From Turicibacter sp. (GTDB lineage: Bacteria; Bacillota_I; Bacilli_A; MOL361; Turicibacteraceae), in contig WRAJ01000005.1 of NCBI GenBank assembly GCA_009780245.1, positions 1-64,000 of the forward strand: a stretch of 64,000 nt of DNA, written 5' to 3'. The position numbers and the translations under genes were made by a program. Every line of letters begins with the position of its first letter. The stretch's first letter is position 1. Under the pieces are notes generated by a model, which was not told the DNA's origin, made no database searches, and worked only from the letters and a program-made list of their open reading frames with translations. Below are positions 16,956-39,460 of the stretch, piece after piece.

Positions 16956-17047
16956 TTGATGAGCTAGCAATGACTTTGATGTGCTTCATACGACCACTTT
17001 ATTTGTTTCCCATCCCCTTCTGCACCAGGCAGAAAGGAAGGTCAAAC

Positions 17048-17624: not shown

Positions 17625-17819
17625 AACAGTGAAAGTAATTCTTAACTCTCGTGTTAATATGAAAAGCCCCAGTGCTGCAACACTAAGGCTTTACATTAAC
17701 AAATATCAAAAGAAAGGAATGATCTGCATGAAATTCACAGGCAAATACGCATTGTTTTGACTTATTAATCCACAGGTAAGTAATCAATGCCCAAACTTTT
17801 AATGAGTTGATTATAATTT
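17625..17819 (+). repeat. Cassette repeat copy 1: long stem-loop plus 10-codon ORF
   Basis: This is the first of three copies of a roughly 200-bp element (others at 25411 and 28805). A long imperfect hairpin at 17653-17700 begins GTTAATATGAAAAGCC and ends AAGGCTTTACATTAAC, with an inner AGTG/CACT stem. Then comes AAAGGA, seven bases, and a reading frame at 17728-17760 encoding MKFTGKYALF and stop. It lies before the DUF6440-tape measure cassette. Confidence 0.8.
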
Positions 17820-17836
17820 ATGAAAATAACAGATCG

Positions 17837-18037
17837 TTATTCAGATTTGTCAATGATAGGTTTTCCATCTGCATCAAGTAGTGGCGTCATAGTAAGAGCT
17901 GCAGCAGTTTTCCCAGCTACGACGTAGTATAAGACACCTGTATGAATATCTTTATGAATTTCATACCATCGTGTAGAAGCTTTGAATTCCTCAGGGAATT
18001 TCCCTAGATGAACACGCTCAAATCTATTTTCAAACAT
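17837..18037 (-). CDS. DUF6440-like small protein, cassette 1
   Basis: 66 residues. The pattern RFERVHLG...HKDIHTGVLYYVVAG...LTMTPLLDADGKPI matches what I know of DUF6440, a small beta-rich family of unknown function in Firmicutes and their phages. GAGGTGATT lies a few bases before the ATG at 18037. It is transcribed divergently from the tape measure gene starting 70 bases away, so the two share a control region. Three more members occur in this window, each at the start of a tape measure gene. The consistent pairing suggests a joint function, such as chaperone, regulator or self-protection, which is inference. Confidence 0.65.
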   Translation of the reverse strand: MFENRFERVHLGKFPEEFKASTRWYEIHKDIHTGVLYYVVAGKTAAALTMTPLLDADGKPIIDKSE

Positions 18038-18107
18038 TAGAATCACCTCAAAAATTATTATAGATTTATTATACATTAAAAAAATATAAAAAGAAAGGAG
18101 AAATTTT

Positions 18108-20453
18108 ATGAATGAAAAAATAAAAATAGATATTAATATTGACAATCGCGAAATGCGAGAATTTCGCGATGTCGTTAATAGTTTAGAAAGTGTTATCAGT
18201 GATCTACAATCATCCAATGAAATATTAGAAGGTTCACTTCGAACCTTGAGTCGTGAGCTGAGTTCGACTGAAGGTGCATTTGCTTCATTTGAATCTGGAG
18301 CTAATTTGTTACTTGGAACCTTAGGCTTTCTGGCTTTAGCAGGTCATGATTTAAGCAATATTCCTGCAAATATAGAAGGAGCTGCAGGAGCGATCACAGG
18401 ATTTATAGGTAAATTAGGCGGCTTAAAGCTAACCTTAGGAACACTAGGAATTGCTGCAGTTGTCACTCTAATAGGTAGTCTGACTAGCTCTATTCGCATG
18501 AGTAGCGAAGCAGCTATAGAATTAAATGAGCGCCTAATCGAAATGCGTCATCGGCATCGCGACGCCATTGGTGAAATAAACGCAAGCATTCGCTCAAATA
18601 ACAACTTAGCTGGCGCACTATTAAACCTAAACTCACAAGCAATAAGAAATAACGATGAACAAAGAGAAATGATTCGCCTAGTAAGAATTCTTAATGCAGA
18701 GGAAAATGGTTTGATACTTACCTATGACGAGCTAAGTGAAGGGCTAAGTGCAAACAGTGTTGCCATGCTCGAACAACATACACAAAGAAATGAAATCAAC
18801 GCATCAGCTGAGCGTGGGGCACAATACTTGGATTCTTTGATTTATGCCATGAATGCAGAAGCAGAGGCGTCTGAAGCATTGGAAGATGTAAGAGAAAGGC
18901 GTGAAGCTGCAAATGAAGCAGCAGGTGATGCAGTTCTTACTATGAGAGAGGTAAATGAGGCGGCGCTACACGGTGAATTTGTTCATGGTCAATTAAATCA
19001 ATCACTTGAAGAATTGAGCCGTGAGTATGAAGCTATCAGCTATGTCCTTGAATCGGTAGGGGCAGACGTTGAATATTTCTATGAGGCATGGACTGAAAAT
19101 GCAAGTAGTCATGCGACTCAAATTAGAGAATACATTGATGAACATGGGCTGTCATATGAAATTTTAAATGAAGCTCAGCAGTATGCAGTTGATCAAATGG
19201 TGGAGCGGTGGACTGAATACCGAGATAATGGACGCGAAATGTTCCAAGAATTAGGAAATGAAACGAGATTATGGTATGAAACAACGGATGCATACGGAAA
19301 TGCCGTAAGGATGAGTTATCTTGAACTAGAAGATGGTCAGAACAGAGCGATGCAAGCCATGATTGACAATCTGCGAAACAACCGAGAAGCAACTGCGGAA
19401 TGGTCAAATAACTTAGACGACCTAGCGTACCGAACGTCAGAAGAATTTGCTGAACATATGAGAAGTATGGGGATAGGATCAGCAGCTTATGTCCAAGCAA
19501 TGTTAGATGGTTGTAGCTATTTGTTAGAAGAGTTATATACAGAATTTGGATTAGCAGGAACATATGCAACCAATAATATGACGGGCTCATTAGGTGAAGG
19601 TGCAGAGGAAGTTATCAACTTGGTTAGTAATATGGGAGCTGACACAGGGGATAGTTTTCTGAGTGCGATTCAAGCAGCAGATTTTCAGAGTATAGGAATC
19701 ATGATACCGCGAGCGGCAATGCTAGGTGTAGAAGAAGGAACGCCAGAATATGAAGCTGCAGTGAGAAGCTTGGGTCAAGATGGTAACGATGCGTTTGAAG
19801 AAGTTATTGGATATAGCTCACCATCCCGAGTGTATAGAGGGTATGGTGAATCAATCATTCAAGGTTTAGTAATTGGTCTTGAAGCATTAAGAGCTCAACC
19901 AATCCGCTCAATGCAAACATTAGCTCGCGACATGCAACGAATCTACAGCACTGCTAATCGCGATTACATAAATGTTGGTCGTGACATCATGCGTGGCCTA
20001 AACCAAGGCCTACTCAACGGTGAGGCCCAAGTCATGAACACGGCTCGTCGGATTGCTAATCAGGTTACGCAGGCAATGCGTCAGGCGTTGAATATTAACT
20101 CGCCTTCGCGGGTGATGCAGGAGGAGATTGGGCGTCAGATTCCGGCTGGGGTGGCTGAGGGGATTGATAAGTACGGTAGCTACGCTACAGATAGTATGTA
20201 CGACCTTGGCAACGAACTAGCTAAAGTGAAATTTCCGAGTATCAACGATGTCATCAACATGGGGTCAAGTTTAAATCTTGCATCAGTAAGCAATGGCGGT
20301 AACTCGTCATATGACAACCGTGTCATTAATAATCATAGCTACGCAGGTTTATTCGACGGCGCAAACATTACTTGGAATGGAGAAGAAGATATCCGTCGTA
20401 CGATGGAGAAAATGGCTCGTGCAGCCGAAGAGGATTCTTATCGGATGTGGTAA
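18108..20453 (+). CDS. Tape measure protein paralogue 1
   Basis: 781 residues. The N-terminus (KIKIDINIDNREMREFRDVV) is shared with the other two paralogues. Hydrophobic stretches near residues 63-80 and 114-130 (LTLGTLGIAAVVTLIGSL) could cross a membrane. A helical, Glu/Ala-rich centre is unique. The last 200 residues hold the tape measure repeats SSPSRVYRGYGESIIQGL and NINSPSRVMQEEIGRQIPAG and are nearly identical to the others. Tape measure proteins set tail length and, in phages, help form the membrane channel. AAAGGAG precedes the ATG. It lies far from the canonical place between gp15 and dit, as part of an inserted cassette flanked by 70-bp direct repeats. Confidence 0.8.
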   Translation: MNEKIKIDINIDNREMREFRDVVNSLESVISDLQSSNEILEGSLRTLSRELSSTEGAFASFESGANLLLGTLGFLALAGHDLSNIPANIEGAAGAITGFIGKLGGLKLTLGTLGIAAVVTLIGSLTSSIRMSSEAAIELNERLIEMRHRHRDAIGEINASIRSNNNLAGALLNLNSQAIRNNDEQREMIRLVRILNAEENGLILTYDELSEGLSANSVAMLEQHTQRNEINASAERGAQYLDSLIYAMNAEAEASEALEDVRERREAANEAAGDAVLTMREVNEAALHGEFVHGQLNQSLEELSREYEAISYVLESVGADVEYFYEAWTENASSHATQIREYIDEHGLSYEILNEAQQYAVDQMVERWTEYRDNGREMFQELGNETRLWYETTDAYGNAVRMSYLELEDGQNRAMQAMIDNLRNNREATAEWSNNLDDLAYRTSEEFAEHMRSMGIGSAAYVQAMLDGCSYLLEELYTEFGLAGTYATNNMTGSLGEGAEEVINLVSNMGADTGDSFLSAIQAADFQSIGIMIPRAAMLGVEEGTPEYEAAVRSLGQDGNDAFEEVIGYSSPSRVYRGYGESIIQGLVIGLEALRAQPIRSMQTLARDMQRIYSTANRDYINVGRDIMRGLNQGLLNGEAQVMNTARRIANQVTQAMRQALNINSPSRVMQEEIGRQIPAGVAEGIDKYGSYATDSMYDLGNELAKVKFPSINDVINMGSSLNLASVSNGGNSSYDNRVINNHSYAGLFDGANITWNGEEDIRRTMEKMARAAEEDSYRMW

Positions 20454-20553
20454 AAGATATCCGAGCTGCGCTCGGTGGCTAGTTGGTGTAGTGGATTAAC
20501 GTTGGTTTTGAATGTTAGCGCTAGTTCACACTGCATCCAACTGATTTGTTGAA

Positions 20554-20594
20554 GGACTGGCTCACTAATGAAAGTTAGTGACTCAGTTCTTTTA
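20554..20594 (+). terminator. Terminator after tape measure 1
   Basis: GGACTGGCTCACTAAT at 20554 pairs, with some G-U and mismatched positions, with GTTAGTGACTCAGTTC around a GAAA loop, followed by TTTT. It closes the cassette 1 transcript. Confidence 0.65.
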
Positions 20595-20614
20595 ATGTGA
20601 TTAAGATAAAACTT

Positions 20615-20685
20615 TTTAAAAGAAATTTTATAAAAACGTCACATTACACCCTCTGCCGTGAGATATAAATAGAGGGTATAAATCT
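20615..20685 (+). repeat. 70-bp direct repeat, right copy
   Basis: This is the second copy of the sequence at 17545-17615, offset by exactly 3,070 bases. It retains the last codons of the sigma-like gene with its TAA, out of context, and the CACCCTCT hairpin with one arm altered. It now lies 34 bases before the endolysin gene. Confidence 0.8.
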
Positions 20686-20718
20686 TCAAGCAAAAAATCA
20701 AAAAGGAGAGAACACACA

Positions 20719-21570
20719 ATGAACTTAATAGACCGAACAAGAGAGGCCATGGGCTGGAATAATCCCTGGCAAACAAGAAAGCAAAACAAAATCAAACGCA
20801 TCGTCGTGCATCACAGTGCAACAGCCGCAGGAAATATGCGAATCTTTGAAAACCATTGGCGCACCAAAGGCTGGCGAAACGGCGGCTATGCAGAAATCAT
20901 CTTACCAAACGGTGATGTTGAAATCTGTTACCCACCAACCGTCGTTACAAACGGTGCAGGCGTCTGGAACAAAACCTCGTATCACATCTGCGTTGTCGGT
21001 AACTTCCGCAAAAACGGCGCCCAACCAAGCAGCGCACAAATGCAAAGCTTACTAACGCGCATTAGGCATAACATGAACGTCTTCAACGTCCCAGTCAAAA
21101 AAATAAAAGGACATAAAGAACTCATGCCGACAATCTGCCCAGGGATGAATATGCCCACGTTGCGCAACCAAGTGCAAAGAGAAGCAGCACCAACGAACAA
21201 TGCGAACCCCACCACACACACCATTCGTCAAGGCGATACCTTCTGGTCTTTATCTCGCATCTGGCAAGTGACGGTCGAAGAAATCAAGCAAGCAAACCCG
21301 AGCGTTAACCCTGCCAATTTACGCATTGGTCAGAGAATTAATCGCCCTGCAAGAAACTCGCAGCCAGCCGCTACTCAAACCAATGCCATTCGAGTGGGTT
21401 CAAGCGTGCGTGTTAATAACACGGCTCAAAGTTGGGCAACCGGTCAAGTTATTCCGACATGGGTAAGAGGCCGCACTTACACGGTGCAACAAATGAGAAA
21501 CAACAACACCGAACTGCTACTTGCTGATATTGTGTCATGGATTAGACGTAGCGATGTCACAAAAGTTTAA
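20719..21570 (+). CDS. Endolysin: N-acetylmuramoyl-L-alanine amidase with LysM
   Basis: 283 residues. Residues 15-150 are an Amidase_2/PGRP domain: IVVHHSATAAGNM with the first zinc His, SYHICVVGNF, and KGHKELMPTICPGMNM with the remaining ligands. Residues 165-210 are a LysM wall-binding domain (HTIRQGDTFWSLSRIWQVTVEEIKQANPSV...LRIGQRI). The last 65 residues look like an SH3-type domain (VGSSVRVNNTAQSWATGQ...WIRRSDVTKV). There is no signal peptide, so release needs a holin. It is unusual that the gene is early in the cluster, 18 kb from the holin. AAAAGGAGAG precedes the ATG. Confidence 0.92.
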   Translation: MNLIDRTREAMGWNNPWQTRKQNKIKRIVVHHSATAAGNMRIFENHWRTKGWRNGGYAEIILPNGDVEICYPPTVVTNGAGVWNKTSYHICVVGNFRKNGAQPSSAQMQSLLTRIRHNMNVFNVPVKKIKGHKELMPTICPGMNMPTLRNQVQREAAPTNNANPTTHTIRQGDTFWSLSRIWQVTVEEIKQANPSVNPANLRIGQRINRPARNSQPAATQTNAIRVGSSVRVNNTAQSWATGQVIPTWVRGRTYTVQQMRNNNTELLLADIVSWIRRSDVTKV

Positions 21571-21819
21571 CAAAAAATAGGACCAAAAAATCCTGCCGTC
21601 TCTAACTTACTGTCCGATTCGTCCCAGTTTACTGTCCGATTTACCCAATTTCTTGACCTTGTCACGTCATTAAACTGACAGCGTAGCTACGCCTAGCCCT
21701 GATCAAGCTATACAAATTAAATAAACAAACAAGCAACACCTACCTCCCCAAAAACGTCCCGTAGCGGGAGAAAATCAGAAAAAAGAGGCGGTGTTGCAAC
21801 GAAGGTGAGGAATCAAAGG
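21571..21819. other. Leader with hairpins and possible IS end remnant
   Basis: TTACTGTCCGATT occurs twice, at 21607 and 21629, 22 bases apart. Repeated short motifs of this type are found at the ends of IS21-like elements, but no transposase is present. Further on, GCAACACC at 21733-21740 pairs with GGTGTTGC at 21790-21797, enclosing a TCCCG/CGGGA hairpin at 21757-21769. These helices lie in the leader of the tail structural genes. Confidence 0.35.
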
Positions 21820-22227
21820 ATGACAGTAAACAGCCTACTATCCCATAGCGGCTATAACAAACTGGGTTCATTTCGCCCGATTGCTTGTGCGGAAGATTAC
21901 TACGCACTGGCATACAAAGCAAATGACGTCTTACTTCACCTCACCGGTCATTTCTATCGAGACAATGATTTCGAAAGTGACAAGAAGGTGAGAAAAACAG
22001 CCTACCAAAAAGCACTCGCCTGTCAAATAGAATATTTCTATGAAACCGGCCAGTCAACCACAGCTGGGCTAAATAGTCTGCCACAACTGATGGACGTCGG
22101 CAGAACAAAAGTAAGCATGATGGCACACGTCAACGAAGAAGGAAAGACGGTGCCAAAATCAATCGTCTGTCCAGATATCGCCTTATACCTAGACGGAACC
22201 GGCTTACTGGATGGGAGTGATGTGTAA
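21820..22227 (+). CDS. Phage connector/tail-completion-like protein
   Basis: 135 residues, the first structural gene. Its place directly before a Minor_capsid_1-type protein matches the connector (head-tail adaptor) of A118-like siphophages, and the length is right. The text FESDKKVRKTAYQKALACQIEYFYETGQST fits the helical core of such adaptors, followed by the KVSM region and CPDIALYLDGTGLL. I chose the ATG at 21820; an in-frame GTG at 21805 overlaps the AGGTGAGG site. The stop overlaps the next start (TAATG). In a tail-only particle it would cap the tail top instead of joining a head. Confidence 0.55.
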   Translation: MTVNSLLSHSGYNKLGSFRPIACAEDYYALAYKANDVLLHLTGHFYRDNDFESDKKVRKTAYQKALACQIEYFYETGQSTTAGLNSLPQLMDVGRTKVSMMAHVNEEGKTVPKSIVCPDIALYLDGTGLLDGSDV

Positions 22228-22568
22228 TGGCATTACGAATCAACCCACAACTACTCAATCAAAGCTTTGAGTATCACGAATTCGAAGAAAAAGACAACTG
22301 GCAAACAGCAAGTTACAAAGCACCGATCACCATCAAAAACGTTCGGTTAGACGAAACACTTGAAACCACACCAGTGTCAGCGGGAGAAGGTCGCGTCATC
22401 AACAAAGCCATCGCTTTTATTTACGCCTCAGACACCACCCCGTTCATCGCATTCAAACGACAGTCAAAAGTCGTGACAAACAACGGCATTTATACCATCA
22501 ACAAAGTGGTAAAAGTAAACGAGCCGTTCAAAGATAAACTATGGAGTGTTGAGCTCGAACTCGTTTAA
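22227..22568 (+). CDS. Minor capsid/tail-completion protein (Minor_capsid_1-like)
   Basis: 113 residues, sharing one base with the previous stop codon. The pattern INPQLLNQSFEYHEFEEKDNWQT...YKAPITIKNVRLD...AIAFIYASDTTP.IAFKRQSKVVTNNGIYTINKVV is that of the Minor_capsid_1 family (A118-type phages), now understood as a head-completion or stopper protein. In a particle without a head it may act as a tail terminator component. The partner Minor_capsid_2 gene that usually follows is missing. Confidence 0.75.
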   Translation: MALRINPQLLNQSFEYHEFEEKDNWQTASYKAPITIKNVRLDETLETTPVSAGEGRVINKAIAFIYASDTTPFIAFKRQSKVVTNNGIYTINKVVKVNEPFKDKLWSVELELV

Positions 22569-22612
22569 GCTCGACATTCGAGCACAAACAAAAAAGAAGG
22601 AGAGCGCGATAC

Positions 22613-23011
22613 ATGAAAAACTTTATCTACCAATTAGTAGATGTTGTCAACCAACTAGAACTAGACGTACCCGTTAAGATCGGTATCTTTGATGAGACCG
22701 AATCCCTGATGGTAAAACCAGCCAGTGGTTCACAAATCATCCACGAATACATGGACGGAAGTGTGGACATCCGCCTGCCGTTCGAGATTAGTATCAAAAA
22801 AGCTAATCAAGAAGAAGCCTTCACCGTCTTACAGGATGTATTAAATCACATCAAAAACAGCGGTGAATACTTGAGCCACACAAATAACGAGGAAAAAGAA
22901 GCACACCTCTTACTTCACTTGACAATGGACCAAATCCCAGTGTTTCAAGCACACACAGACGGTTACTTCATTTACACCTCATATTTAACGGTTGATCTAA
23001 CCGTGGCATAA
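22613..23011 (+). CDS. Minor capsid protein 3-like, tail terminator
   Basis: 132 residues. FIYQLVDVVNQLELDVPVKIGIFDETESLMVKPASGS and the ending YFIYTSYLTVDLTVA fit the Minor_capsid_3 family of A118/TP901-1-like phages, which occupies the tail terminator position just before the tail tube gene. AGAAGGAGAGC precedes the ATG. It probably stops tail tube growth at the length set by the tape measure protein. Confidence 0.7.
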   Translation: MKNFIYQLVDVVNQLELDVPVKIGIFDETESLMVKPASGSQIIHEYMDGSVDIRLPFEISIKKANQEEAFTVLQDVLNHIKNSGEYLSHTNNEEKEAHLLLHLTMDQIPVFQAHTDGYFIYTSYLTVDLTVA

Positions 23012-23058
23012 CAAACAAAAAGACAGCTGGCAACCCAGCCAAAAGGAGAAAAGAAATT

Positions 23059-23502
23059 ATGAGAAACAAAAACGCAAAACGCCAACATTTCGTAGCACCA
23101 TTTACAGGAGCAGAAGCAGCACCAGCAATGGCTGAATTCTTGCCATTAGCTAAGTTCATCACCGACATCACAGATGGCAGTGACGACCAAACGGATGAGT
23201 TTGCCGACTACGCCGGAGACGGAACGGTCCAAACTGAAATCACAGGCATTCAAGAATCATGGGACATCTCTGGCACGTTCGACGTGACGGACCCAGCACA
23301 AGCTTTAATCGCAGGCATGAAGCGTAAAGTCGGAAACGAGCGCAAAGTGTGGCACATGATCATTGATTCAAACGGCACGGAAGAAGTAGTCGGCGTTGCA
23401 ACGGCATTATCAATCGTGGCAGGTAGCGGCTCAGCAGAAGACCACGAAGAATTCGCTTGTACGTTACAATTCGACCAACGCCCTGAAGTTCGCTCTATCT
23501 AA
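23059..23502 (+). CDS. Major tail (tube) protein
   Basis: 147 residues. The position between the terminator and the chaperone genes, and the stretch ADYAGDGTVQTEITGIQESWDISGTFDVTDPAQALIAGMKRKVGNERKVWHMI, match the short major tail proteins of siphophages and Listeria monocins. It forms the tube of hexameric rings. AAGGAG precedes the ATG. A GGGATGC/GCATCCC hairpin at 23571-23600 follows in the gap before the next gene and may reduce read-through, as expected for a highly expressed structural gene. Confidence 0.8.
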   Translation: MRNKNAKRQHFVAPFTGAEAAPAMAEFLPLAKFITDITDGSDDQTDEFADYAGDGTVQTEITGIQESWDISGTFDVTDPAQALIAGMKRKVGNERKVWHMIIDSNGTEEVVGVATALSIVAGSGSAEDHEEFACTLQFDQRPEVRSI

Positions 23503-23641
23503 CAAAAGCAACTAAAAACTAAGCTTACGACAAAGCAAGTCTGAACACAAGAAACAATAACAAACAGAATCGGGATGCCTAACACAAATAAGCGCATCCC
23601 TATTCTTAAATAAACTTAGGAAAAAGAAAGAGGTAATCATA

Positions 23642-24016
23642 ATGGCATTAAAACTAAACTTAAAAAAATCAATCTTTCCCGTAGAAATCGGCGCGTTCAC
23701 ATTCGAAGTTGACCTATCAGACGACAAAGTAAAAGACTTCGAAGCAAAAATGGCATCGTTTCTAGAGGGAGTAGAAGCAGCAGCAGCTGACGAAGCAACA
23801 TTCACAGAACTACTAGGCAACGTCTACGACGAACTACTCGGCGACGGCGCGTACAAAAAACTATACGATCACACAAAACGCGTGGACATCCTAGCTGAAC
23901 TGCTAGGCGACTTAATGCTAGCACTAGTAAGCAAACTACCAGGCCGTACGACATTAATCGACGCCTTAAAAGCTTCCGACACAACCCTAAAATCAAAACA
24001 ACCTGATGGTAACTAG
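23642..24016 (+). CDS. Tail assembly chaperone-like protein
   Basis: 124 residues, acidic and helical (FEVDLSDDKVKDFEAKMASFLEGVEAAAADEATFTELLGNVYDELLGDGAYKKLYDHTKRVDILAELLGDLMLAL). Its place between tail tube and gp15 and its helical nature fit the tail assembly chaperone (G-type) that coats the tape measure protein. It ends two bases before the gp15 ATG. I see no obvious slippery sequence for a programmed frameshift into gp15. Confidence 0.65.
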   Translation: MALKLNLKKSIFPVEIGAFTFEVDLSDDKVKDFEAKMASFLEGVEAAAADEATFTELLGNVYDELLGDGAYKKLYDHTKRVDILAELLGDLMLALVSKLPGRTTLIDALKASDTTLKSKQPDGN

Positions 24017-24018
24017 TC

Positions 24019-24585
24019 ATGTTTGAACTAGACGAAAAGTTAGAAACAGAGCTTGATTTAGACGGTACCGTCTACCCGGTGAATATGGCGTTTAATAACA
24101 TCATGACACTTTTCAAGCTCTTAGAAAACAAATGGCTAAGACCGGATGAGAAAATTCAGCAGGGGCTTCATTTATTACTTGACACCCATTTAGAAATTGA
24201 AAACAACGAGCAAGTGGCAGTCTTCCATTACTTATTAGATCACTTTGTTAATAGCGATCAAAAAAACGTACCGGAAGTCGATTTAGAGGGTAACCCCATA
24301 CCGATCAAAAAACAAGCGGCTAGCCAAGATTTGCGACACGATGCCTCTTACATCTACAACTCCTTTCGGCAGGCATACAACATCAATTTGTTCGAAGAGC
24401 ACGGCAAGTTAGATTGGCGCGAATTTTTATCACTCCTTCGCGGCTTACCAGAAGACACCGAGTACAAGAAAGTCTTAGACATCCGTACGCGACCTTATCA
24501 GAAAGGCAAGGGAACCGGCGAAGCGAACCGAAAACTGAAGGAAGCGAAAAAGCGTGTAGCCTTGCCGGGAACTTCGGTGGAATAA
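24019..24585 (+). CDS. Bacteriophage Gp15 family protein, tail chaperone
   Basis: 188 residues. LDGTVYPVNMAFNNIMTLFKLLENKWL...KIQQGLHLLLD and later SYIYNSFRQAYNINLFEEHGKLDWREFLSLLRGLPEDTEYKKVLDIRTRP are classic for the Gp15 family of A118-like phages, encoded directly upstream of the tape measure gene. Here the tape measure gene does not follow directly: a terminator, a reverse lipoprotein gene and the DUF6440 array intervene. It probably assists tape measure folding or tail nucleation. Confidence 0.85.
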   Translation: MFELDEKLETELDLDGTVYPVNMAFNNIMTLFKLLENKWLRPDEKIQQGLHLLLDTHLEIENNEQVAVFHYLLDHFVNSDQKNVPEVDLEGNPIPIKKQAASQDLRHDASYIYNSFRQAYNINLFEEHGKLDWREFLSLLRGLPEDTEYKKVLDIRTRPYQKGKGTGEANRKLKEAKKRVALPGTSVE

Positions 24586-24602
24586 GGGCAGTTAGCAAAA
24601 AG

Positions 24603-24629
24603 AAAACCAAGGCATCACACCTTGGTTTT
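24603..24629. terminator. Bidirectional terminator after gp15
   Basis: AAAACCAAGG pairs with CCTTGGTTTT around a seven-base loop. It separates the converging gp15 and lipoprotein genes. Confidence 0.8.
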
Positions 24630-24633
24630 GCGG

Positions 24634-25146
24634 TTATTCTTCACCGAGGAAGAACGCTCTGATGCCAATGAGGCCTTCGATAATCACATCGCGTGCTTCT
24701 TCCAAATCTAAGTCATCGCTATCGATGTTTTGCACCACAAAGCCTTGCACCTCTTCAACAAAGTCCACCACGTTTTCAATTTGTGCGACGACGTAAACAG
24801 AGGCATTGACATCCTGCAAAGCCGATCGTGTACCAGTAATGAAACCACCGGTCGTTGCCGTAAACAAGAGGGCACTTTCGGTGTTGATTTCTTCAAATTG
24901 CGGGAGTGTATCGGTTATCCAGTTTGCCAGTATTTCATGCTCAGCAGCTAAAGGATCGACGTCTTCTTCCTCGATAGCCTCTGTGGCTGGTTCGGTCACC
25001 TCTTCAACCTCTTCTTCAGCAGGCTCAGTCACCTCTTCAACAATCTCTGGTTCATCAACTGGCTCATAGTCATCACCATTATTGTTGCAGGCGACAAGAA
25101 CGAACCCCACAAATAAAACAGCTAGCAAACCAAATAACTTTTTCAT
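24634..25146 (-). CDS. Acidic lipoprotein within the tail module
   Basis: 170 residues. A lipoprotein signal peptide ends in the lipobox LVAC at residue 20. A Glu/Val/Pro-rich linker follows (VEEVTEPAEEEVEEVTEPATEA), then a helical domain of about 110 residues with no family I recognise. It is encoded against the tail genes, between gp15 and the tape measure cassettes. In some phages (for example the Ltp protein of TP-J34) a host-anchored lipoprotein blocks superinfection by acting on the tape measure protein. A self-protection role against the tail particle is therefore possible, but is inference from location and anchoring. Confidence 0.6.
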   Translation of the reverse strand: MKKLFGLLAVLFVGFVLVACNNNGDDYEPVDEPEIVEEVTEPAEEEVEEVTEPATEAIEEEDVDPLAAEHEILANWITDTLPQFEEINTESALLFTATTGGFITGTRSALQDVNASVYVVAQIENVVDFVEEVQGFVVQNIDSDDLDLEEARDVIIEGLIGIRAFFLGEE

Positions 25147-25342
25147 CTTAAAAACCCCTTTGTGCTTGTGTCTCTACCCATAGTATAGCGATTTAAGCCC
25201 AAAAGGTGACCTTCATTTTCACAAAGTGAAGAAATTTGAAAAAGAAACAAAGTTCTTTGAAAATTGCATAAGAATAAGCATTAAATGCTCAGGAGTTTTT
25301 ACATGCTTTCGCTAACTTGAAAGTAGTGTTGGAAAGGGGGTG

Positions 25343-25397
25343 TCTCGCTAAAGAATCAAATGAAACGACCTTCATTTTTTAGCGAGACAACCTTTTT
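25343..25397 (+). terminator. Intrinsic terminator before cassette 2
   Basis: GTCTCGCTAAA at 25343-25353 pairs with TTTAGCGAGAC at 25378-25388, followed closely by CCTTTTT. It stops transcripts entering from the left, so the tape measure cassettes need their own promoters. The stretch 25147-25342 holds the lipoprotein promoter region and no gene. Confidence 0.7.
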
Positions 25398-25410
25398 ATA
25401 AGTTGAGTTT

Positions 25411-25617
25411 AAGATGACAGTTAAAAACTATGTAAGTAATTCTTAACTCTCATGTTAATATGAAAAGCCCCAGTGCTGCAACACCAAGGCTTTAGTTAAC
25501 AAATATCAAAAGAAAGGAATGATCCGCATGAAATTCACAGGCAAATACGCATTGTTTTGACTTATTAACCCACAGGTAAGTAATCAATATCCAAGCTTTT
25601 AATGAGTTGATTATAGG
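25411..25617 (+). repeat. Cassette repeat copy 2: long stem-loop plus 10-codon ORF
   Basis: This second copy is about 90% identical to copy 1. The hairpin spans 25454-25500 (GTTAATATGAAAAGCC to GGCTTTAGTTAAC). The 10-codon frame is at 25528-25560 with the same peptide, MKFTGKYALF. It begins AAGATGACAG, as copy 3 does. Confidence 0.8.
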
Positions 25618-25621
25618 TTTA

Positions 25622-25828
25622 TTATACAGAGGTATTAATAGCTTGTTTTCCATTTGAATCAACTAGTGGTGTCATGGTTGCTCTGCCTTGTCCAGACTCA
25701 GTGTATAAATAGAGGGCACCAGTTACTTTATCTCGTAAGGTTGCAGTATTTAACTGCCCCATTACAAATAAATCTAGTGGCATAGCAACTGATTCAGCAT
25801 GAATTACCTCAAAACGATTATCTAACAT
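25622..25828 (-). CDS. DUF6440-like small protein, cassette 2 (orphan)
   Basis: 68 residues: RFEVIHAE..., LRDKVTGALYLYTESG..ATMTPLVDSNGK. The family pattern is kept, although the usual DGKP is SNGK. The ATG at 25828 has GAGGTGATTTTC before it. The gene diverges from a tape measure start at 25888 that is broken after about 30 codons, so this copy has lost its partner. Its upstream region (25829-25976) is about 90% identical to that of the next DUF6440 gene, yet the two proteins are only distantly similar. Confidence 0.65.
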   Translation of the reverse strand: MLDNRFEVIHAESVAMPLDLFVMGQLNTATLRDKVTGALYLYTESGQGRATMTPLVDSNGKQAINTSV

Positions 25829-25887
25829 GAAAATCACCTCAGAATAAATTTTTAAAAACTTAAAAACGAAAGGAGTTATAATAAAAA

Positions 25888-26007
25888 ATGCAACAGAATC
25901 AAACAATAAGAATCGACATAAACATGAATGATTCAGAAATAAGAAATCTAAATTCTAGTATACAGGATTTAGTAAACTTCCAGAACTTTGTTAAGACTTG
26001 TCAATAA
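25888..26007 (+). pseudogene. Relic of a tape measure gene (5' end only)
   Basis: 39 codons. The first 29 (QQNQTIRIDINMNDSEIRN...) are almost identical to the start of the tape measure gene at 26249, with the same AAAGGAGTT site. Similarity stops after GATTTAGTA at 25976, and the frame then runs into the 3' end of the next, oppositely oriented DUF6440 gene and stops at 26005-26007. It is the remains of a tape measure cassette cut by deletion or replacement. Confidence 0.8.
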
Positions 26008-26188
26008 ATGGTTTTCCATCTATATCAAGTATCGGTGTTAATGCTGGTTCACCATTCCTGTTTTGGAGATAAAGATAAAGAATGTTTGTTATCCTATCCT
26101 TAATGATGAGTTGATTACCAAAGCTTTTTTTCTTTAACTCATCCCACAAAGATTCGTCACGAATGACAAAAAATCTATTTTCTAACAT
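25991..26188 (-). CDS. DUF6440-like small protein, cassette 3
   Basis: 65 residues: RFFVIRDESLWDELKKKSF..IIKDRITNILYLYLQNRNGEPALTPILDIDGKPFIDK, a clear member of the same family as its neighbours. It diverges from the intact tape measure gene at 26249, with GAGGTGATTTTC before the ATG. Its 3' end overlaps the relic tape measure frame by 17 bases on the opposite strand. Together with 25622-25976 it forms a tandem duplication of roughly 360 bases. Confidence 0.65.
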   Translation of the reverse strand: MLENRFFVIRDESLWDELKKKSFGNQLIIKDRITNILYLYLQNRNGEPALTPILDIDGKPFIDKS

Positions 26189-26248
26189 GAAAATCACCTC
26201 AATAATAAATTTTAAAAATATAAAAACGAAAGGAGTTGTAATGAAAAT

Positions 26249-28840
26249 ATGCAACAAAATCAAATAATAAGAATTGACATAAACATGAATGATTCAGAAA
26301 TAAGAAATCTAAATACTAGTATACAGGATTTAGTAGATGTAAGCAATAGCCTAGGAATGTCTTTTAGAAGCGCTGGTGATGATCTACAGTCACTAGGCAG
26401 TAGTTTCAGTTCCTCGAAAACAATATTCAATACACAACGCAAAACTATGACATATTTAAGAGATGCTTCGTTTATGCTGGGACAAGATTATGAAAGGTTG
26501 GTTGGGCAAATAGAAGAGCTTGCCGCACCTCTCGCAGCTGCCGAAGCAAGTGCAAATGGAACTGCTAAAGCATTTAGCTTCAAAGGAGCATCTGCTAAAG
26601 TTGCTGCAACTGGAGTAGGGATTTTAAGTGGAGCACTAAAAGCTTTACCATTTATCGGTATCGGTATTGCCCTTGTAAATCTTGTTGGCTCATTCGCTAG
26701 ACTGGTTGGAAACTTAAATACAAGTAGCGATGCTACAGATGAATTTAACGAGAGATTACGTGACTTAAGAGATGAATTAGATGAAAATCGAACAGCTCAC
26801 GACAGCAATATTCAGCGTATCAGAACAAGCAATCAAGTCATGCAGACAGCCATTGATCGAATCTCAGATCTATCTAATGGAGAAAACCTAAATGAGGGCT
26901 ACAAAAACAGATTACGAATTGCAACTGGCATACTTAATGTAAGCTTGTCAGAGTATGCTGCAGCACTTGGTATTACAACTAGTGCACTAGCAGGAAATAA
27001 TGAAGAGGCATTAAGAAGCATTCAAAACTTCCAAACTCAATCTAGTCATATGTCAGCAATGGAGGGACACTTGGAAGAGATCATCAGACTTCAAGAAGAT
27101 AAATACTACTCAACAGAAAGTCTAGCCAGTTTACAAGAGGTATACGATAATTTACAGAGAGGCGTTGCAGAATACCGTGTTGAGTTAGAAGAATTACGTG
27201 AAAACAATGAAATTATTCTTGGGCAAAACGATGGACTTGCTGAAAGATATTTATATCTTGCGAGAGAGGTGGGTGCAGTTGACGGAGAAATCGCGGAATT
27301 AAATGTGAGCATGGCAGAACACAATATGATTATTGATGATGCTGTTGAAGGAATTTCCGATCTTGAAAGAGAGTATCAAATCACATTCACCGAAATGTAT
27401 ATGCATGTTCAGCAACATGGACTAACATTAGGAGCGTTAAATGATGTCCAAAGAGAGGTCATTGACCGTGGAATTGGCTATTGGCAACAGTATGAAGAGA
27501 TGAGTACGGAGATGTTTAGGCGGGTTGGTCAATCAAACCAATATAGCCTCGAACAAGTTGCTGAGAATCAATATCAGAATCGACTTGCAACAGAAAATTG
27601 GCAAGACAATTTAGTTGTTTTATATGAAAAATATGGTGCAGAAGTAGCTGCAGAACTACGTGCAATGGGTGAAGATGGTATGCACATCGTTGCTGAAATG
27701 GCTGACTATGTAACAAACAATTATGAAGAGATGGCAGATGGAACATGGGAACATTTAGGGAATATGGCAGATGGCACTTATAGTCATGCTACTCAAATCG
27801 CAAACAATTTGACAAGCGGTGCAGAGACTGCCAGGCGAGGGATGACACTTCAATTAGGAGAAGGCTTTGACTCAAGTATTGATTTGATAGAACAGTTTGG
27901 TAGTCGTAGTCGAACTACGCTAAGTCAAGACTTTAATGCCGCTAATTTTGAAGTATTTGGAATCGCAATCCCAGCAGGTTTGATGGAAGGGGTAAGAAGA
28001 AACCAACCAGAAGCTATTGCAGAACTTGAAAGATTTGCAGATGAATTAGGGTTGTGCTTTAGAACAATATTACAAATCAATTCACCATCAGGTGTGTTTA
28101 TGGAATACGGTGAAGGGATCGTTGAAGGTCTTCAGCGAGGAATAACTGCATTAAAGAGCCAACCAATCAATCTATTGCAAAGAGCAGCACGCGATATGAA
28201 GCGAATCTACAATACAGCTAGTCGTGACTACATAAATGTTGGTCGTGACATCATGCGCGGCCTAAATCAAGGTTTACTCAACGGTGAAGCTCAAGTCATG
28301 AGCACGGCTCGTCGGATTGCTAATCAAATCACGGTTGCGATGCGTCAGGCGTTGAACATTAACTCGCCTTCTCGGGTGATGCAGGAAGAGATTGGGCGTC
28401 AGATTCCGGCTGGGGTGGCTGAGGGGATTGATAAGTACGGTAATTATGCGACAGATAGTATGTACGATCTCGGCAACGAACTAGCTAAAGTGAAATTTCC
28501 GAGTATCAACGACGTCATCAACATGGGGCCAAGTCTGAGCTTAGCTGGTGCTGGTGCTTCGTCGATGATCACGAACCACAATAACAACCAGAGTCATAGC
28601 TATGCCGGTTTGTTTGATGGTGCGACGATCAACTGGCACGGCGAGGAGGATATCCGTCGTACGATGGAGAAGATGGCTCGGGCAGCGGAAGAGGATGCTT
28701 ATCGCATGTGGTTTAGAAAATTTTGTGCGACAACCCTAAAACAGAGATGTTCAATTTTGGATACTAAAATCTTTCGTTATGCAAAAAAATACGCGATTCA
28801 TATTAAGATGACAGCTAAGAACAGTGAAAGCAATTCTTAA
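26249..28840 (+). CDS. Tape measure protein paralogue 2
   Basis: 863 residues. The N-terminus IIRIDINMNDSEIRNLNTSI matches the other paralogues. A hydrophobic stretch near residues 123-152 (LSGALKALPFIGIGIALVNL) could span a membrane. The helical middle is unique. The last 200 residues repeat NSPSGVFMEYGEGIVEGLQ and NSPSRVMQEEIGRQIPAG and are nearly identical to paralogues 1 and 3. Those two end at YRMW; this one lost its stop codon there and adds about 46 unrelated residues that run into cassette repeat 3. I chose the ATG at 26249 because the one at 26241 is out of frame and stops early. Confidence 0.8.
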   Translation: MQQNQIIRIDINMNDSEIRNLNTSIQDLVDVSNSLGMSFRSAGDDLQSLGSSFSSSKTIFNTQRKTMTYLRDASFMLGQDYERLVGQIEELAAPLAAAEASANGTAKAFSFKGASAKVAATGVGILSGALKALPFIGIGIALVNLVGSFARLVGNLNTSSDATDEFNERLRDLRDELDENRTAHDSNIQRIRTSNQVMQTAIDRISDLSNGENLNEGYKNRLRIATGILNVSLSEYAAALGITTSALAGNNEEALRSIQNFQTQSSHMSAMEGHLEEIIRLQEDKYYSTESLASLQEVYDNLQRGVAEYRVELEELRENNEIILGQNDGLAERYLYLAREVGAVDGEIAELNVSMAEHNMIIDDAVEGISDLEREYQITFTEMYMHVQQHGLTLGALNDVQREVIDRGIGYWQQYEEMSTEMFRRVGQSNQYSLEQVAENQYQNRLATENWQDNLVVLYEKYGAEVAAELRAMGEDGMHIVAEMADYVTNNYEEMADGTWEHLGNMADGTYSHATQIANNLTSGAETARRGMTLQLGEGFDSSIDLIEQFGSRSRTTLSQDFNAANFEVFGIAIPAGLMEGVRRNQPEAIAELERFADELGLCFRTILQINSPSGVFMEYGEGIVEGLQRGITALKSQPINLLQRAARDMKRIYNTASRDYINVGRDIMRGLNQGLLNGEAQVMSTARRIANQITVAMRQALNINSPSRVMQEEIGRQIPAGVAEGIDKYGNYATDSMYDLGNELAKVKFPSINDVINMGPSLSLAGAGASSMITNHNNNQSHSYAGLFDGATINWHGEEDIRRTMEKMARAAEEDAYRMWFRKFCATTLKQRCSILDTKIFRYAKKYAIHIKMTAKNSESNS

Positions 28841-29015
28841 TTCTCATGTTAATATGAAAAGCCCAAGTGCTGCAACACTAAGGCTTTACGTTAACAAATA
28901 TTAAAAGAAAGGAATGATCTGCATGAAATTCACAGGCAAATACGCATTGTTTTGACTTATCAATTCGCAGGTAAGTAATCAATGTCCAAGCTTTTAATTT
29001 ATTTATTGATTATAT
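28805..29015 (+). repeat. Cassette repeat copy 3: long stem-loop plus 10-codon ORF
   Basis: This is the third copy, overlapping the extended 3' end of the tape measure 2 gene. The hairpin is at 28848-28895 (GTTAATATGAAAAGCC to GGCTTTACGTTAAC). The 10-codon frame lies at 28923-28955 with an unchanged peptide. The AT-rich 29016-29180 stretch after it carries only the promoter of the next gene (extended -10 TGATATAAT ending at 29149). Confidence 0.8.
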
Positions 29016-29180
29016 CATATGCGATATGAAAAATAAAATGTGCATTGAAGGCAAAAGACGAGTGGAACAAGTGTTCTAAGAAAATTAAATATTAATAAAT
29101 AAGTATCTTTACTAATTAACTAGGCAACGCTTTAATTCTTTGATATAATGTGATTATCAATTCGATTGGAGTGTGGAAAA

Positions 29181-29378
29181 ATGAAAAACAAGAAACTTGG
29201 TGCACGATTCGAGAGGGTTTACTGGGAAAATGGTCTTGTAGATGGAGTTGGTGTTATAAATCAGTTTATCATGAAAGACAAGAAAACAGGCGTTCTATAC
29301 CTACACACTGAAAATAGAAGTGGAACTTCTGTGATTGTACTAGTTGATCGAGACGGTAAACCATTAGTTGATGAATAA
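29181..29378 (+). CDS. DUF6440-like small protein, cassette 4
   Basis: 65 residues: RFERVYWENG..IMKDKKTGVLYLHTENRSGTSVIVLVDRDGKPLVDE. It is the best match to the family pattern among the four. Unlike the others it runs in the same direction as its tape measure gene, which starts 87 bases later. The ATG at 29181 follows TTGGAG; a TTG at 29166 in frame is less likely. An extended -10 sequence, TGATATAAT, lies about 30 bases upstream, so it may be expressed with tape measure 3 from one promoter. Confidence 0.7.
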   Translation: MKNKKLGARFERVYWENGLVDGVGVINQFIMKDKKTGVLYLHTENRSGTSVIVLVDRDGKPLVDE

Positions 29379-29464
29379 AGTAAATATTATTTAGAGAGAT
29401 GCTTATGAAAACAAAATCATGCGCATCTTTTATTATGCGCAAAAATTTGAAAAGGAGAGAAAAT

Positions 29465-31846
29465 ATGAATATACAAAATGAAACAATAAGAATAAACTTT
29501 GACATCGATGATCGTGCAATCAGGCAATTAGATGATATCATTTCTGATTTAAATAAAACACTTGGAGATATTGGTGATGCACTTGGAAATTTAGAATTAT
29601 CAAGTAGTAACTCCCTTGGAACATTCGCGATGTTGGCGGGTGCCTTTGCAGTTTTGTCATTTGATGGGGACGCTTTGAAAGGAAGCTTAACTGAATTAAC
29701 TAAAAAGTCACTTAAAGGTCTTTCAGGAGAATTAGCTACTGCACAAGGTAATGTCGTAGGTTTGCTTGGTGCTTTTAAAAACACAGCAGGTACAATTGTT
29801 AAGAAAAAAGGAGCATTGGGGCTCTTAGTCGGAGCAATGAAATTAATCCCATGGGCAGGTGCTATCTGGGGGCTTACCCAATTACCGGGATTATTTAGAA
29901 GTGTAATTTCAAGTGCAATCGGTTGTAGAGAGGAGTATGAACGATTAACTGATGCTATAGGAGCAAATCGTGCTGCACATGCAACTAGAAGAGGAGAGAT
30001 AGAGCGAGAGTTAACTACGAATCGCAGTTTAATTTCACATCTTCAGGAACTACAAAATGCAGAGCATAGAACTAATGGTGCTCGTGGGGTGGCTATATTA
30101 AAAACAAGAGAATTAAATGAATTGATGCCAGATTTAAACTTAGCTTATGACAGGCAAACTGGATTGCTTGATGAAAACAGCGAACGAACACTTACGCTAG
30201 CTGGTTATTATGCAGACTTGTCTGCTGCAACTGATAGTTTACAAAACGATCAAGACAGATTGAACGAGATAACAGAAGAATATCCAGATATCACCGATCG
30301 CCTTACCGATCTTAGGCAAATTATGGCTGAAAATAACGAGACCATCCGAGACACAACAACAGGCATATATTCACATAGTGCGGCTTTCTATCGTGCTAGA
30401 GATGAATATCAGGCTCTAATTGTTCAACAACAAAGATTAGGAAATGAAAGCGAGTATTTAACTGATAGAATCTATAACACAGCAGGCGAAATGATGGGTA
30501 TTTACGATACTTTGGCTATTCATCATTCGATGACATTCGATACGATGACTGATTCACAACAAGCAGTAGTGGATGGGTTTAGAGACATGCACAGTCTCTC
30601 TGCAGGATACCTGAATGATTTAACAGGGACATTTGAACATAACAATGATCTGACGTGGGCATCTGCACAATTGAATAACAGGAGAATGATTACGGAAACA
30701 GCAATGTTTACTAATTTATACTCAGATTTAGTATCACAGGGGGTTAGTGAAGCGTTCTTGCAAGCAATTGGTGCTGATAGTGCAAGTGCAATCCCGATGC
30801 TGGTTGAGATGCAACGGTATGGCGTTCAAAATGTTATCAATGAGCAAGATAGATGGTATGCGGCACATGCTGCAAATGCGGACACCATGCTAGATGCATT
30901 TGAGATTAATGGGGAACATCGTACTGCTATTAGAAACTATGTATTAGGACTTGAAAACTCTTTGTCTGACAATATTGAAGCATCTAATTTTAGAGAACTT
31001 GGTAGAACGAGTTCTAGACAATTTATGGGAGCTTTGAATGAAGAAGCACAAGTGCAAGCTGAAATGTTAAGACACAATTCATACTTATATGGTGGACAAT
31101 TTGTTGAAGGAACAGCAAATGGAATAATGGGAAGAGTTAGAGAAGCGGTTAATTCAATGTCGCATGTATCTGAAGCTATGCAACGGGCATTTAGAATGCT
31201 AAACGGATTGAGTTCACCATCAAGAGTTTATCGTAGTTATGGAGAGAATATCATACAAGGATTAGTCAATGGACTTGAAGCATTAAGAGCTCAACCAATT
31301 CGTTCAATTCAAACATTAGCTCGCGACATGGAACGAATCTACAACACTGCTAATCGTGACTACATCAACATCGGCCGTGACATCATGCGTGGCTTAAACC
31401 AAGGTTTACTCAACGGTGAGGCGCAGGTCATGAACACGGCTCGTCGGATTGCTAATCAGATTACGCAGGCAATGCGTCAGGCGTTGAATATTAACTCGCC
31501 TTCGCGGGTGATGCAAGAAGAGATTGGGCGTCAGATTCCGGCTGGGGTGGCTGAGGGGATTGATAAGTATGGTAGTTATGCTACGGATAGTATGTATGAC
31601 TTAGGCAACGAACTAGCTAAAGTGAGATTTCCGAGTATCAACGACATCATCAACATGGGGCCAAGTCTGAGCTTAGCTGGTGCTGGTGCTTCGTCGATGA
31701 TCACGAATCATAATAACAACCAGAGTCATAGCTATGCTGGCTTGTTTGATGGTGCGACGATCAACTGGCACGGCGAGGAGGATATCCGTCGTACGATGGA
31801 GAAGATGGCTCGTGCAGCCGAAGAGGATTCTTATCGGATGTGGTAA
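29465..31846 (+). CDS. Tape measure protein paralogue 3
   Basis: 793 residues from the ATG at 29465, which has AAAGGAGAG before it; an upstream ATG at 29399 in frame lacks a good site. The N-terminus (TIRINFDIDDRAIRQLDDII) is shared. Hydrophobic stretches lie near residues 54-70 and 118-150 (GALGLLVGAMKLIPWAGAIW). The middle is unique. The last 200 residues with SSPSRVYRSYGENIIQGL and NSPSRVMQEEIGRQIPAG nearly match the other copies, and it ends at YRMW. It lies just before dit, the canonical tape measure place, so it is the likeliest to be used. Confidence 0.85.
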   Translation: MNIQNETIRINFDIDDRAIRQLDDIISDLNKTLGDIGDALGNLELSSSNSLGTFAMLAGAFAVLSFDGDALKGSLTELTKKSLKGLSGELATAQGNVVGLLGAFKNTAGTIVKKKGALGLLVGAMKLIPWAGAIWGLTQLPGLFRSVISSAIGCREEYERLTDAIGANRAAHATRRGEIERELTTNRSLISHLQELQNAEHRTNGARGVAILKTRELNELMPDLNLAYDRQTGLLDENSERTLTLAGYYADLSAATDSLQNDQDRLNEITEEYPDITDRLTDLRQIMAENNETIRDTTTGIYSHSAAFYRARDEYQALIVQQQRLGNESEYLTDRIYNTAGEMMGIYDTLAIHHSMTFDTMTDSQQAVVDGFRDMHSLSAGYLNDLTGTFEHNNDLTWASAQLNNRRMITETAMFTNLYSDLVSQGVSEAFLQAIGADSASAIPMLVEMQRYGVQNVINEQDRWYAAHAANADTMLDAFEINGEHRTAIRNYVLGLENSLSDNIEASNFRELGRTSSRQFMGALNEEAQVQAEMLRHNSYLYGGQFVEGTANGIMGRVREAVNSMSHVSEAMQRAFRMLNGLSSPSRVYRSYGENIIQGLVNGLEALRAQPIRSIQTLARDMERIYNTANRDYINIGRDIMRGLNQGLLNGEAQVMNTARRIANQITQAMRQALNINSPSRVMQEEIGRQIPAGVAEGIDKYGSYATDSMYDLGNELAKVRFPSINDIINMGPSLSLAGAGASSMITNHNNNQSHSYAGLFDGATINWHGEEDIRRTMEKMARAAEEDSYRMW

Positions 31847-31944
31847 AAGATACCGAGCTGCGCTCGATGGCTAGTTTATATGAAACAATCTGTGAAAGTT
31901 AAAAAGAAATGAAAAAAATGAGAAACAAAAAGAGGAGGAAAAAT

Positions 31945-32667
31945 ATGTTTACGTATAAAGGAAAAAGTAGTAAAGAAATGAATTTGCGCGTTGTAGGGAA
32001 TGTGTCGTTTGCATCGCCAAGTCGAGACGTTAGGGCGGTTCAAGTGCCGGGGCGCGATGGGGATTTGATGCTGGATAATGGGCGATTTAATTCTGTTGTT
32101 CGCAGTATCCCTTGTCGGATTGAACCCGTTGATGGGGGTGACATTGAGGCGTTGATTAGTCGGATTAATAATTGGTTGAGTGACGATGGCAATTTGCATG
32201 AGTTTGGTTGGGACAACGATCCTGATTTTAAATATTTAGCGCGTGTTGATGGGGGTGTTGTTAGTCAGCGGATTTTATCCCATTTTGGCACAACCGCGAT
32301 TGATTTTAGGATGCACCCGATTAAGTATTTGCGTGCCAGTTTAAATGAACGTCCGGTAACGAGTGGAACGAATGTGGCGAATCCGTTTAGTATTGATGCG
32401 AAGCCAAGGATGCGCATTGTGAGGGTAGGCAGTGGTGAAGGTGATGTGACGATTCATGTGGGTGGTCGCCCTGTGCTGATTAGAGGATTGGCTAGTGGTT
32501 GTATCATCGATAGTGACACACAAACGATTACGAATTTGAATGGCACGGTCACGTTGTTTAGTCAGATGAGGAGTCCGTTCCCTGTTTTAAGGCCGGGAGA
32601 TAATCAGATCACGTTTCCAGCGAATGTTCAGGTTCAGCTTACACCGCGATTGGGGGCGTTGTTATGA
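31945..32667 (+). CDS. Distal tail protein Dit
   Basis: 240 residues. FTYKGKSSKEMNLRVVGNVSFASPSRDVRAVQVPGRDGDLMLDNGRF and LISRINNWL...GNLHEFGWDNDPDFKYLARV are typical of the N-terminal belt domain of Dit proteins, which form the hub ring at the tail tip of Gram-positive siphophages. AGAGGAGG lies directly before the ATG at 31945; upstream in-frame ATGs cover that site. It overlaps the next gene by four bases (ATGA). Confidence 0.88.
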   Translation: MFTYKGKSSKEMNLRVVGNVSFASPSRDVRAVQVPGRDGDLMLDNGRFNSVVRSIPCRIEPVDGGDIEALISRINNWLSDDGNLHEFGWDNDPDFKYLARVDGGVVSQRILSHFGTTAIDFRMHPIKYLRASLNERPVTSGTNVANPFSIDAKPRMRIVRVGSGEGDVTIHVGGRPVLIRGLASGCIIDSDTQTITNLNGTVTLFSQMRSPFPVLRPGDNQITFPANVQVQLTPRLGALL

Positions 32668-36026: not shown

Positions 36027-36186
36027 GATACAAGTAGAAATGATTAATGGTTTGGCGGTTAAGATTGCCAATTTAGAGGTACAGGTAGCGGCTTTGACGG
36101 CAGAGAATAACATGTTGTTAGGTGAACTTCAAGGTGCTTCGAATGAGGATGTGGAAGGAGTTGGCGTTTATGAATCAAGTGAATAA
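36016..36186 (+). CDS. Small coiled-coil protein between tal and bppU
   Basis: 56 residues: MENRIQVEMINGLAVKIANLEVQVAALTAENNML and a polar end. It overlaps the Tal stop by 11 bases and the next start by 17 bases, so it is probably translated by coupling. Heptads of Ile/Leu/Val suggest a short coiled coil. Similar tiny genes sit here in many Gram-positive phages. Function unknown. Confidence 0.55.
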   Translation: MENRIQVEMINGLAVKIANLEVQVAALTAENNMLLGELQGASNEDVEGVGVYESSE

Positions 36187-37396: not shown

Positions 37397-37407
37397 GAGG
37401 CGGAAAT

Positions 37408-39444: not shown

Positions 39445-39460
39445 GAGGGCGGTGAGCAAT

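Follow-up and report, generated by a model that had tools for sequence, protein, structure and literature searches.

A headless tail module in Turicibacter with several tape measure genes and adjoining partner genes: a candidate for polymorphic tape measure/immunity cassettes

Killing by tailocins and the survival of kin are normally explained by surface receptors alone, and the insertion of phage tape measure proteins (TMPs) into membranes is established. No immunity proteins have been described for tailocins, absence of the receptor being thought to suffice (PMC7243282). In the diffocin structure, the C-terminus of the TMP lies on the spike and its N-terminus at the collar (PMC11329794); the constraints of docking therefore predict conserved ends and a free middle. 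Proteins that act on TMPs have precedents in Ltp (PMC3952083) and SNIPE (PMC13190303). A 2026 paper reports that contractile systems of actinobacteria carry effectors related to TMPs, one of them paired with an immunity protein (PMC13277306). This TMP-like pair, from Micromonospora, is the nearest precedent for the locus described here, which is not categorically new because the pair precedes it.

The locus lies in a stretch of 64,000 nucleotides that we analysed as a whole (the window), on contig C5 of a draft genome of 2.1 Mb, about 76% complete. A tail-only, headless phage module adjoins valS (15479) there, with the gene order sigma-like regulator, TMP1, amidase, connector/terminator-like genes, major tail protein, Gp15-type gene, TMP2, TMP3, Dit, Tal, two fibres and holin. 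Its genes other than the TMPs, together with a neighbouring lipoprotein gene, are as follows.

17042..17563, plus strand: sigma-like regulator, head of the tail module (phrog_11138, E 1e-22; more weakly phrog_1740, RNA polymerase sigma factor)
20719..21570, plus strand: amidase-LysM endolysin (PF01510, PF01476)
within 21805..24585, plus strand: connector/tail terminator-like genes (phrog_541, 793, 913, 820 and 706, matches for the whole span)
23059-23502, plus strand: major tail protein
24019-24585, plus strand: Gp15-type gene (PF06854)
24634..25146, minus strand: acidic lipoprotein gene between the Gp15-type gene and cassette 2 (lipobox VLVACNN; pI 4.1)
31909-32667, plus strand: Dit (phrog_33, phrog_1330 and phrog_1067, matches for the span 31909..36026)
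32664-36026, plus strand: tail tip/Tal protein (PHROG matches as for the Dit span)
36122..39691 including the holin, plus strand: two collagen-repeat receptor-binding fibres (PF10651, PF01391), the first with a BppU N-terminal domain
39425-39691, plus strand: BhlA-type holin (PF10960)

Among the ORFs inspected or scanned between valS (15479) and 40 kb, none is a gene for a capsid, portal, terminase or integrase or for replication; of head, packaging or integration genes there are connector/adaptor-like ones at most. Over the same interval we found no contractile sheath gene and a single major tail protein, of which the genome holds one copy. The module has genes for the tail tube, TMP, Dit, Tal, fibres and lysis, which is the gene set of an F-type tailocin, and it can be assigned an F-type (non-contractile, headless) tailocin layout. 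The collagen repeats of the second fibre, and HExxH/ImmA-like and repressor-like genes 5' of the module on the opposite strand, were read from sequence only. The acidic lipoprotein gave no match in a Pfam scan and is a possible Ltp-like exclusion lipoprotein. The closest relative, of the same genus, has no such element at valS.

Within this module, the TMP genes are accompanied by short genes of the DUF6440 family (PF20037) and by copies of a repeat. We number the TMPs T1 to T4 and the DUF6440 genes D1 to D5.

17640..17803, plus strand: cassette repeat, copy 1 (94% identical to the 28835-29010 copy)
17837..18037, minus strand: D1, divergent from T1 across a 70-bp gap (PF20037, 38.6 bits)
18108..20453, plus strand: T1, 781 aa (phrog_1686, E 1e-69)
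25441..25603, plus strand: cassette repeat, copy 2 (93% identical to the 28835-29010 copy)
25622..25828, minus strand: D2, an intact orphan whose TMP is only a stub (PF20037, 40 bits)
25888..26007, plus strand: TMP N-terminal stub of ~30 codons (homology to T2 ends near 25970, after which the sequence enters the 3' end of D3)
25991..26188, minus strand: D3, divergent from T2 across a 60-bp gap (PF20037, 37.2 bits)
26249..28840, plus strand: T2, 863 aa including a 42-aa read-through extension (phrog_1686, E 3e-59)
28835..29010, plus strand: cassette repeat, copy 3, the query copy
29181..29378, plus strand: D4, co-directional with T3 across an 86-bp gap (PF20037, 47.2 bits)
29465..31846, plus strand: T3, 793 aa, directly 5' of Dit (phrog_1686, E 4e-51)
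L007 8379-8542 (contig C8 of the same genome): cassette repeat, copy 4
L007 7880-11338 (contig C8): orphan cassette D5-T4, preceded by the 3' fragment of a sigma-like gene

A sequence-only reading of this DNA had claimed three coexisting intact TMPs of 781, 863 and 793 aa with shared ends and a differing middle, and the ORFs and their matches to PHROG tape measure families (the best being phrog_1686) bear it out. T3 would become 815 aa from an in-frame ATG upstream, and a fourth TMP, T4 (814 aa), lies outside the window on contig C8 at 18.5-21.3 kb, with a DUF6440 gene of its own (D5). Over the last ~150 residues the TMPs share 86-97% pairwise amino-acid identity, and their N-terminal ~20 residues hold a common short motif of the I-x-I-[DN] type. 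Their middles are mostly 7-36% identical per 60-column block, yet nonetheless homologous, scoring z 7-18 over shuffled sequences. The terminal codons of T1 and T3 are identical, and T4 has the same terminal residues, whereas T2 has lost its stop (TGGTTT in place of the TGGTAA of T1 and T3) and gains 42 residues. This extension (window 28700-28840) reaches the next repeat, and may be a recombination scar or a sign of lost function. The C-termini of the four TMPs, near-identical in sequence, give an omega of 0.08-0.16 at a dS of 0.20-0.94, a sign of strong purifying selection. The copies are therefore not fresh duplicates, and all four seem to be long-established and under functional constraint, if their similarity is not the product of gene conversion. 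The predicted membrane segments of T1-T4 are weak.

The four DUF6440 genes of the window all exceed the curated cut-off of PF20037 (37-47 bits against 26.5). The same reading had given each TMP one such gene, which holds for each intact TMP, but the window has four DUF6440 genes for three TMPs, D2 standing at a stub. Since all five matches in the 2.1-Mb genome lie within 59-86 bp of a TMP start, the adjacency of the two in this genome is not chance. Four of the five are divergent from the TMP; the exception, D4, has an extended -10 promoter-like site at 29121-29149, such sites being about as frequent as in shuffled sequence. The DUF6440 partners are mutually 32-53% identical with near-saturated silent sites, as against 93-94% for the flanking repeats, so that the partners and the TMP middles have diverged while the surrounding frame was conserved. 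Covariation of TMP and partner gave an r of about 0.5, not significant at a permutation p of 0.17-0.33, in a small sample of the only four intact pairs of one genome. No PDB match better than E 1 was found for the DUF6440 model in a fold search, the best viral fold match was another DUF6440 protein, and Pfam and fold searches gave no DNA-binding or recombinase signature in the partners.

Another way to view the locus is as a series of exchangeable units, as the sequence-only reading had proposed and as the shared ends, diverged middles, cassette-specific repeat, orphan cassette elsewhere and stub junctions all uphold. The 176-bp repeat has exactly four copies in the genome, each ahead of a cassette (D1-T1, D2-stub-D3-T2, D4-T3, and D5-T4 on contig C8). 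One stretch of 40 nt in it is invariant and contains a mini-ORF (MKFTGKYALF) preceded by a Shine-Dalgarno-like site. The repeat also has a hairpin, and it folds somewhat better than shuffles (z -2.2); in Rfam, the whole module including the repeat matches no family. The flanks of the orphan cassette on C8 are, by sequence, chromosomal, with a MATE-type transporter on one side and pilin/sortase genes on the other, and no other tail genes lie near it. The conserved frame and variable part recur in several cassettes, with a partner gene adjoining the TMP in every one. In the D2 unit, the TMP stub of ~30 codons is joined directly to D3 at the 3' end of that gene.

We found the same cassette architecture in two relatives, with partners that are not DUF6440 proteins and likewise lie divergent at the 5' end of the TMP. 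One (G007) is a sister species of the same genus, whose fragmented assembly breaks inside TMP repeats and of which about half was read; the other (G006) belongs to another genus of the same family. The main array of the sister species is on its contig C4.

L128 1-3238 (contig C4 of G007): three divergent partner genes in an array with TMP stubs and two copies of a ~225-bp repeat (90% identical)

Its order is P1 (minus strand) beside a TMP N-terminal fragment, the repeat, P2 (minus strand) beside a 15-codon TMP stub that runs into P3 (minus strand), and the repeat again; P1, which adjoins a truncated TMP, is itself cut by the contig end. The same junction, at which a stub passes directly into the following partner gene from its 3' side, is thus present in two species (D2-D3 here, P2-P3 in G007). 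On contig C44 of G006, an intact partner of 211 aa, related to P2 (42% identical), is divergent from a frameshifted, truncated TMP N-terminus and sits among chromosomal genes such as one that reads as guaA. The only PADLOC match, of this partner to JetB, was sub-threshold (E 0.006) and judged to be chance.

The P2 family has a predicted PH fold, with PDB PH domains heading the Foldseek list, and a SHOCT tail, and P3 a predicted strong N-terminal membrane segment. Confident matches to the P2 (PH-type) family occur in 2 of 395 genomes of the class, G006 and G007, always at TMP N-termini, besides one weak, frame-broken match in a third (G039). The tail module of G007, on two contigs that share an end, holds a regulator-like gene, major tail protein, two chaperones, a 146-aa gene, TMP, Dit, Tal and fibre, and we saw no genes for a head in it; the 146-aa gene, for a basic protein, lies between chaperones and TMP and is divergent from the latter by about 52 bp. 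At contig ends of G007 there are, besides, a second Dit/Tal/fibre module and an orphan TMP C-terminus. Of the TMP C-termini at such ends (L126 1-266 and L127 12326-12591), one precedes Dit/Tal/fibre/amidase; no tail genes follow the other, which counts as one more orphan TMP, this time in the sister species. Thus an intact partner stands beside a destroyed TMP in three genomes, as D2, P2 and the 211-aa gene. Different partner families therefore occupy the same slot, and partners outlive their TMPs.

Pairing of TMPs with DUF6440 as such is too narrow a description, other families holding the same position in relatives, and the enrichment of DUF6440 near TMP genes that the sequence-only reading expected across genomes failed to appear. 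In our class sample of 395 genomes, to which a phylum-level draw added almost nothing, DUF6440 occurs in 12, and none of the other 11 pairs it with a TMP; its neighbours there are groEL, a tRNA-ligase gene and further genes of the chromosome, or else a mobile region of an unrelated kind. With no DUF6440 gene at 17 TMP loci outside the genus either, we rejected DUF6440 as a general TMP partner. One weak DUF6440-like match upstream of a TMP (L105, 8.9 bits) was rejected as an ORF in the usual chaperone position, and a decayed DUF6440 gene with an apparent internal insertion lies in a genome of the same family (G001; L009 10264-10500), with no tail gene near. Ordinary phage TMP layouts of the class (17 loci, excluding those of G007) have no divergent partner gene between chaperone and TMP, and the partners are absent from ordinary prophage TMP loci, including a head-bearing prophage of G006. 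Searching IMG/VR and a genome-contig collection for relatives of the TMP, partners and tail tip returned only this genome and one weak TMP match. Phage and plasmid records held no relatives of partners or TMP N-termini, phage records giving only relatives of the C-terminal half of the TMP and of Dit; for the tested partners, 50,697 phage records held none. The partners have no Pfam, PHROG or PADLOC match of the Ltp/HK97 gp15 exclusion type.

We consider it slightly more likely than not that the locus is an F-type tailocin with polymorphic TMP/immunity cassettes and stacked orphan immunity genes. The TMP would be the swappable killing part, in a cassette of repeat, partner gene and TMP. Its C-terminus would dock at the Dit/Tal tip and its N-terminus at the proximal end, and both ends would be kept because both must dock, while the middle, expected to enter the target membrane, diversifies. 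Lysis would free the particles, the fibres would bind kin-like cells, and the ejected TMP would enter the membrane and depolarise it, presumably killing the cell. The partner would be an immunity protein, usually expressed from its own divergent promoter and perhaps constitutively, so that non-producing kin hold it before the late tail operon fires, and it would neutralise its cognate TMP, either at the membrane or while still in the cytoplasm. A new cassette would enter by recombination, at the repeat or at the 5' end of the TMP, and cut the old TMP to a 5' stub, and the partner of the displaced TMP would be retained as an orphan immunity gene, giving stacked units of partner and stub. More tentatively, and with rather less confidence, we suggest that the TMP of the non-contractile tailocins of this family of Bacillota may itself be a polymorphic, strain-specific toxin, that the bacteria may carry dedicated, exchangeable immunity proteins along with stacked orphans that record displaced TMPs, and that this may be the first immunity system of classical (F-type) tailocins.

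The partner had earlier been proposed to be either a folding chaperone or a self-protection protein, and it is the latter that fits better. Most partners are divergent from the TMP and therefore lie outside the late tail operon, which favours self-protection, and the intact partners beside dead TMPs in three genomes argue for immunity, because a clientless chaperone has no reason to persist and an immunity gene has. That each TMP variant has a chaperone of its own, for folding or against aggregation, a role compatible with a partner that adjoins the TMP and diverges along with it and with the co-directional D4, is thus quite unlikely in our judgement: besides the surviving partners and the four of five that are divergent from the late operon, the modules already carry Gp15/chaperone-type genes, and one partner (193 aa) has a predicted strong N-terminal membrane segment. 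We give somewhat more weight, while still finding it unlikely, to superinfection exclusion only, by which the partners would stop phages or foreign tailocins whose injected TMP is similar, and the partner and stub units would form a small anti-phage arsenal, the TMPs of the host being ordinary rulers whose multiplicity alters tail length or the use of inner-membrane receptors. In its favour, exclusion proteins are known to target the TMP (Ltp, PMC3952083; SNIPE, PMC13190303), orphan partners persist without a TMP, and the acidic lipoprotein gene adjoins cassette 2, but the lack of relatives of the tested partners in those 50,697 phage records and the absence of partners at the TMP loci of ordinary prophages, among them the one in G006 that has head genes, count against exclusion.

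That the partner is a passenger, a small gene carried along when the 5' end of the TMP gene recombines and without a function related to it, would agree with DUF6440 being unrelated to tails elsewhere, and homology of the TMP N-termini could serve as a recombination track. However, every cassette has one partner, unrelated partner families share place and orientation in related species, and their frames stay open, which makes a passenger improbable to us, slightly more so than a chaperone. Least credible, and very improbable, is an array of silent donors in which only T3, before Dit, is used, the other TMPs serving as gene-conversion templates and the partner acting in regulation or assisting recombination. 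The conserved ends of T1-T4 would be ideal for conversion, T3 stands in the canonical place and T2 lacks the usual stop, but silent copies do not need an omega near 0.1 over dS values up to 0.9, though conversion could mimic it, and the partners lack a DNA-binding or recombinase signature.

Against immunity itself we count the weak membrane segments of T1-T4, the co-directional D4, the covariation p of 0.17-0.33 and the shuffle-like frequency of promoter sites. We also count against it that DUF6440 genes of other genomes sit in the chromosome with no relation to tails, so that the domain has no intrinsic immunity function, that classical tailocins have no known immunity protein (PMC7243282), and that P1 of G007 is truncated by the end of its contig. 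The evidence of retention and junctions shows that partners are kept; their activity we infer. If the partners are immunity proteins, then the TMP would be a diversifying toxin, kin discrimination would work on a second level, inside the cell, and the small partner genes could serve to predict which bacteria survive which tailocin. The long-standing question of whether an ejected TMP forms a lethal channel would become testable by protection experiments.

Of the described systems, F-type tailocins (F-pyocin; the Listeria monocin) share with this locus the headless, sheathless siphophage-type tail with major tail protein, TMP, Dit, Tal, fibres, holin, lysin and regulator, but here there are several TMP genes with partner genes, whereas tailocins have no described immunity proteins (PMC7243282). 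Actinobacterial contractile injection systems with the effectors Sle1 and Micromonospora RS14790/RS14785 likewise have a TMP-like cargo with a diversified functional part and, once, an adjacent neutralising protein; they differ in being contractile, with a C-terminal variable domain and the immunity gene downstream, and the portion of the paper available to us holds no multi-cassette or orphan arrays (PMC13277306). In TMP-directed exclusion (Ltp of TP-J34, HK97 gp15, SNIPE), small or membrane proteins also act on a TMP, but they do not form a gene pair with the TMP on which they act, and their sequences are unrelated to the partners here. Polymorphic toxin/immunity systems (CDI, Rhs) have the same conserved frame, variable toxic part and linked immunity gene, with orphan immunity genes left after displacement; in our case, however, the variable part is internal, the partner lies 5' and is mostly divergent, and the displaced remnants are 5' stubs.
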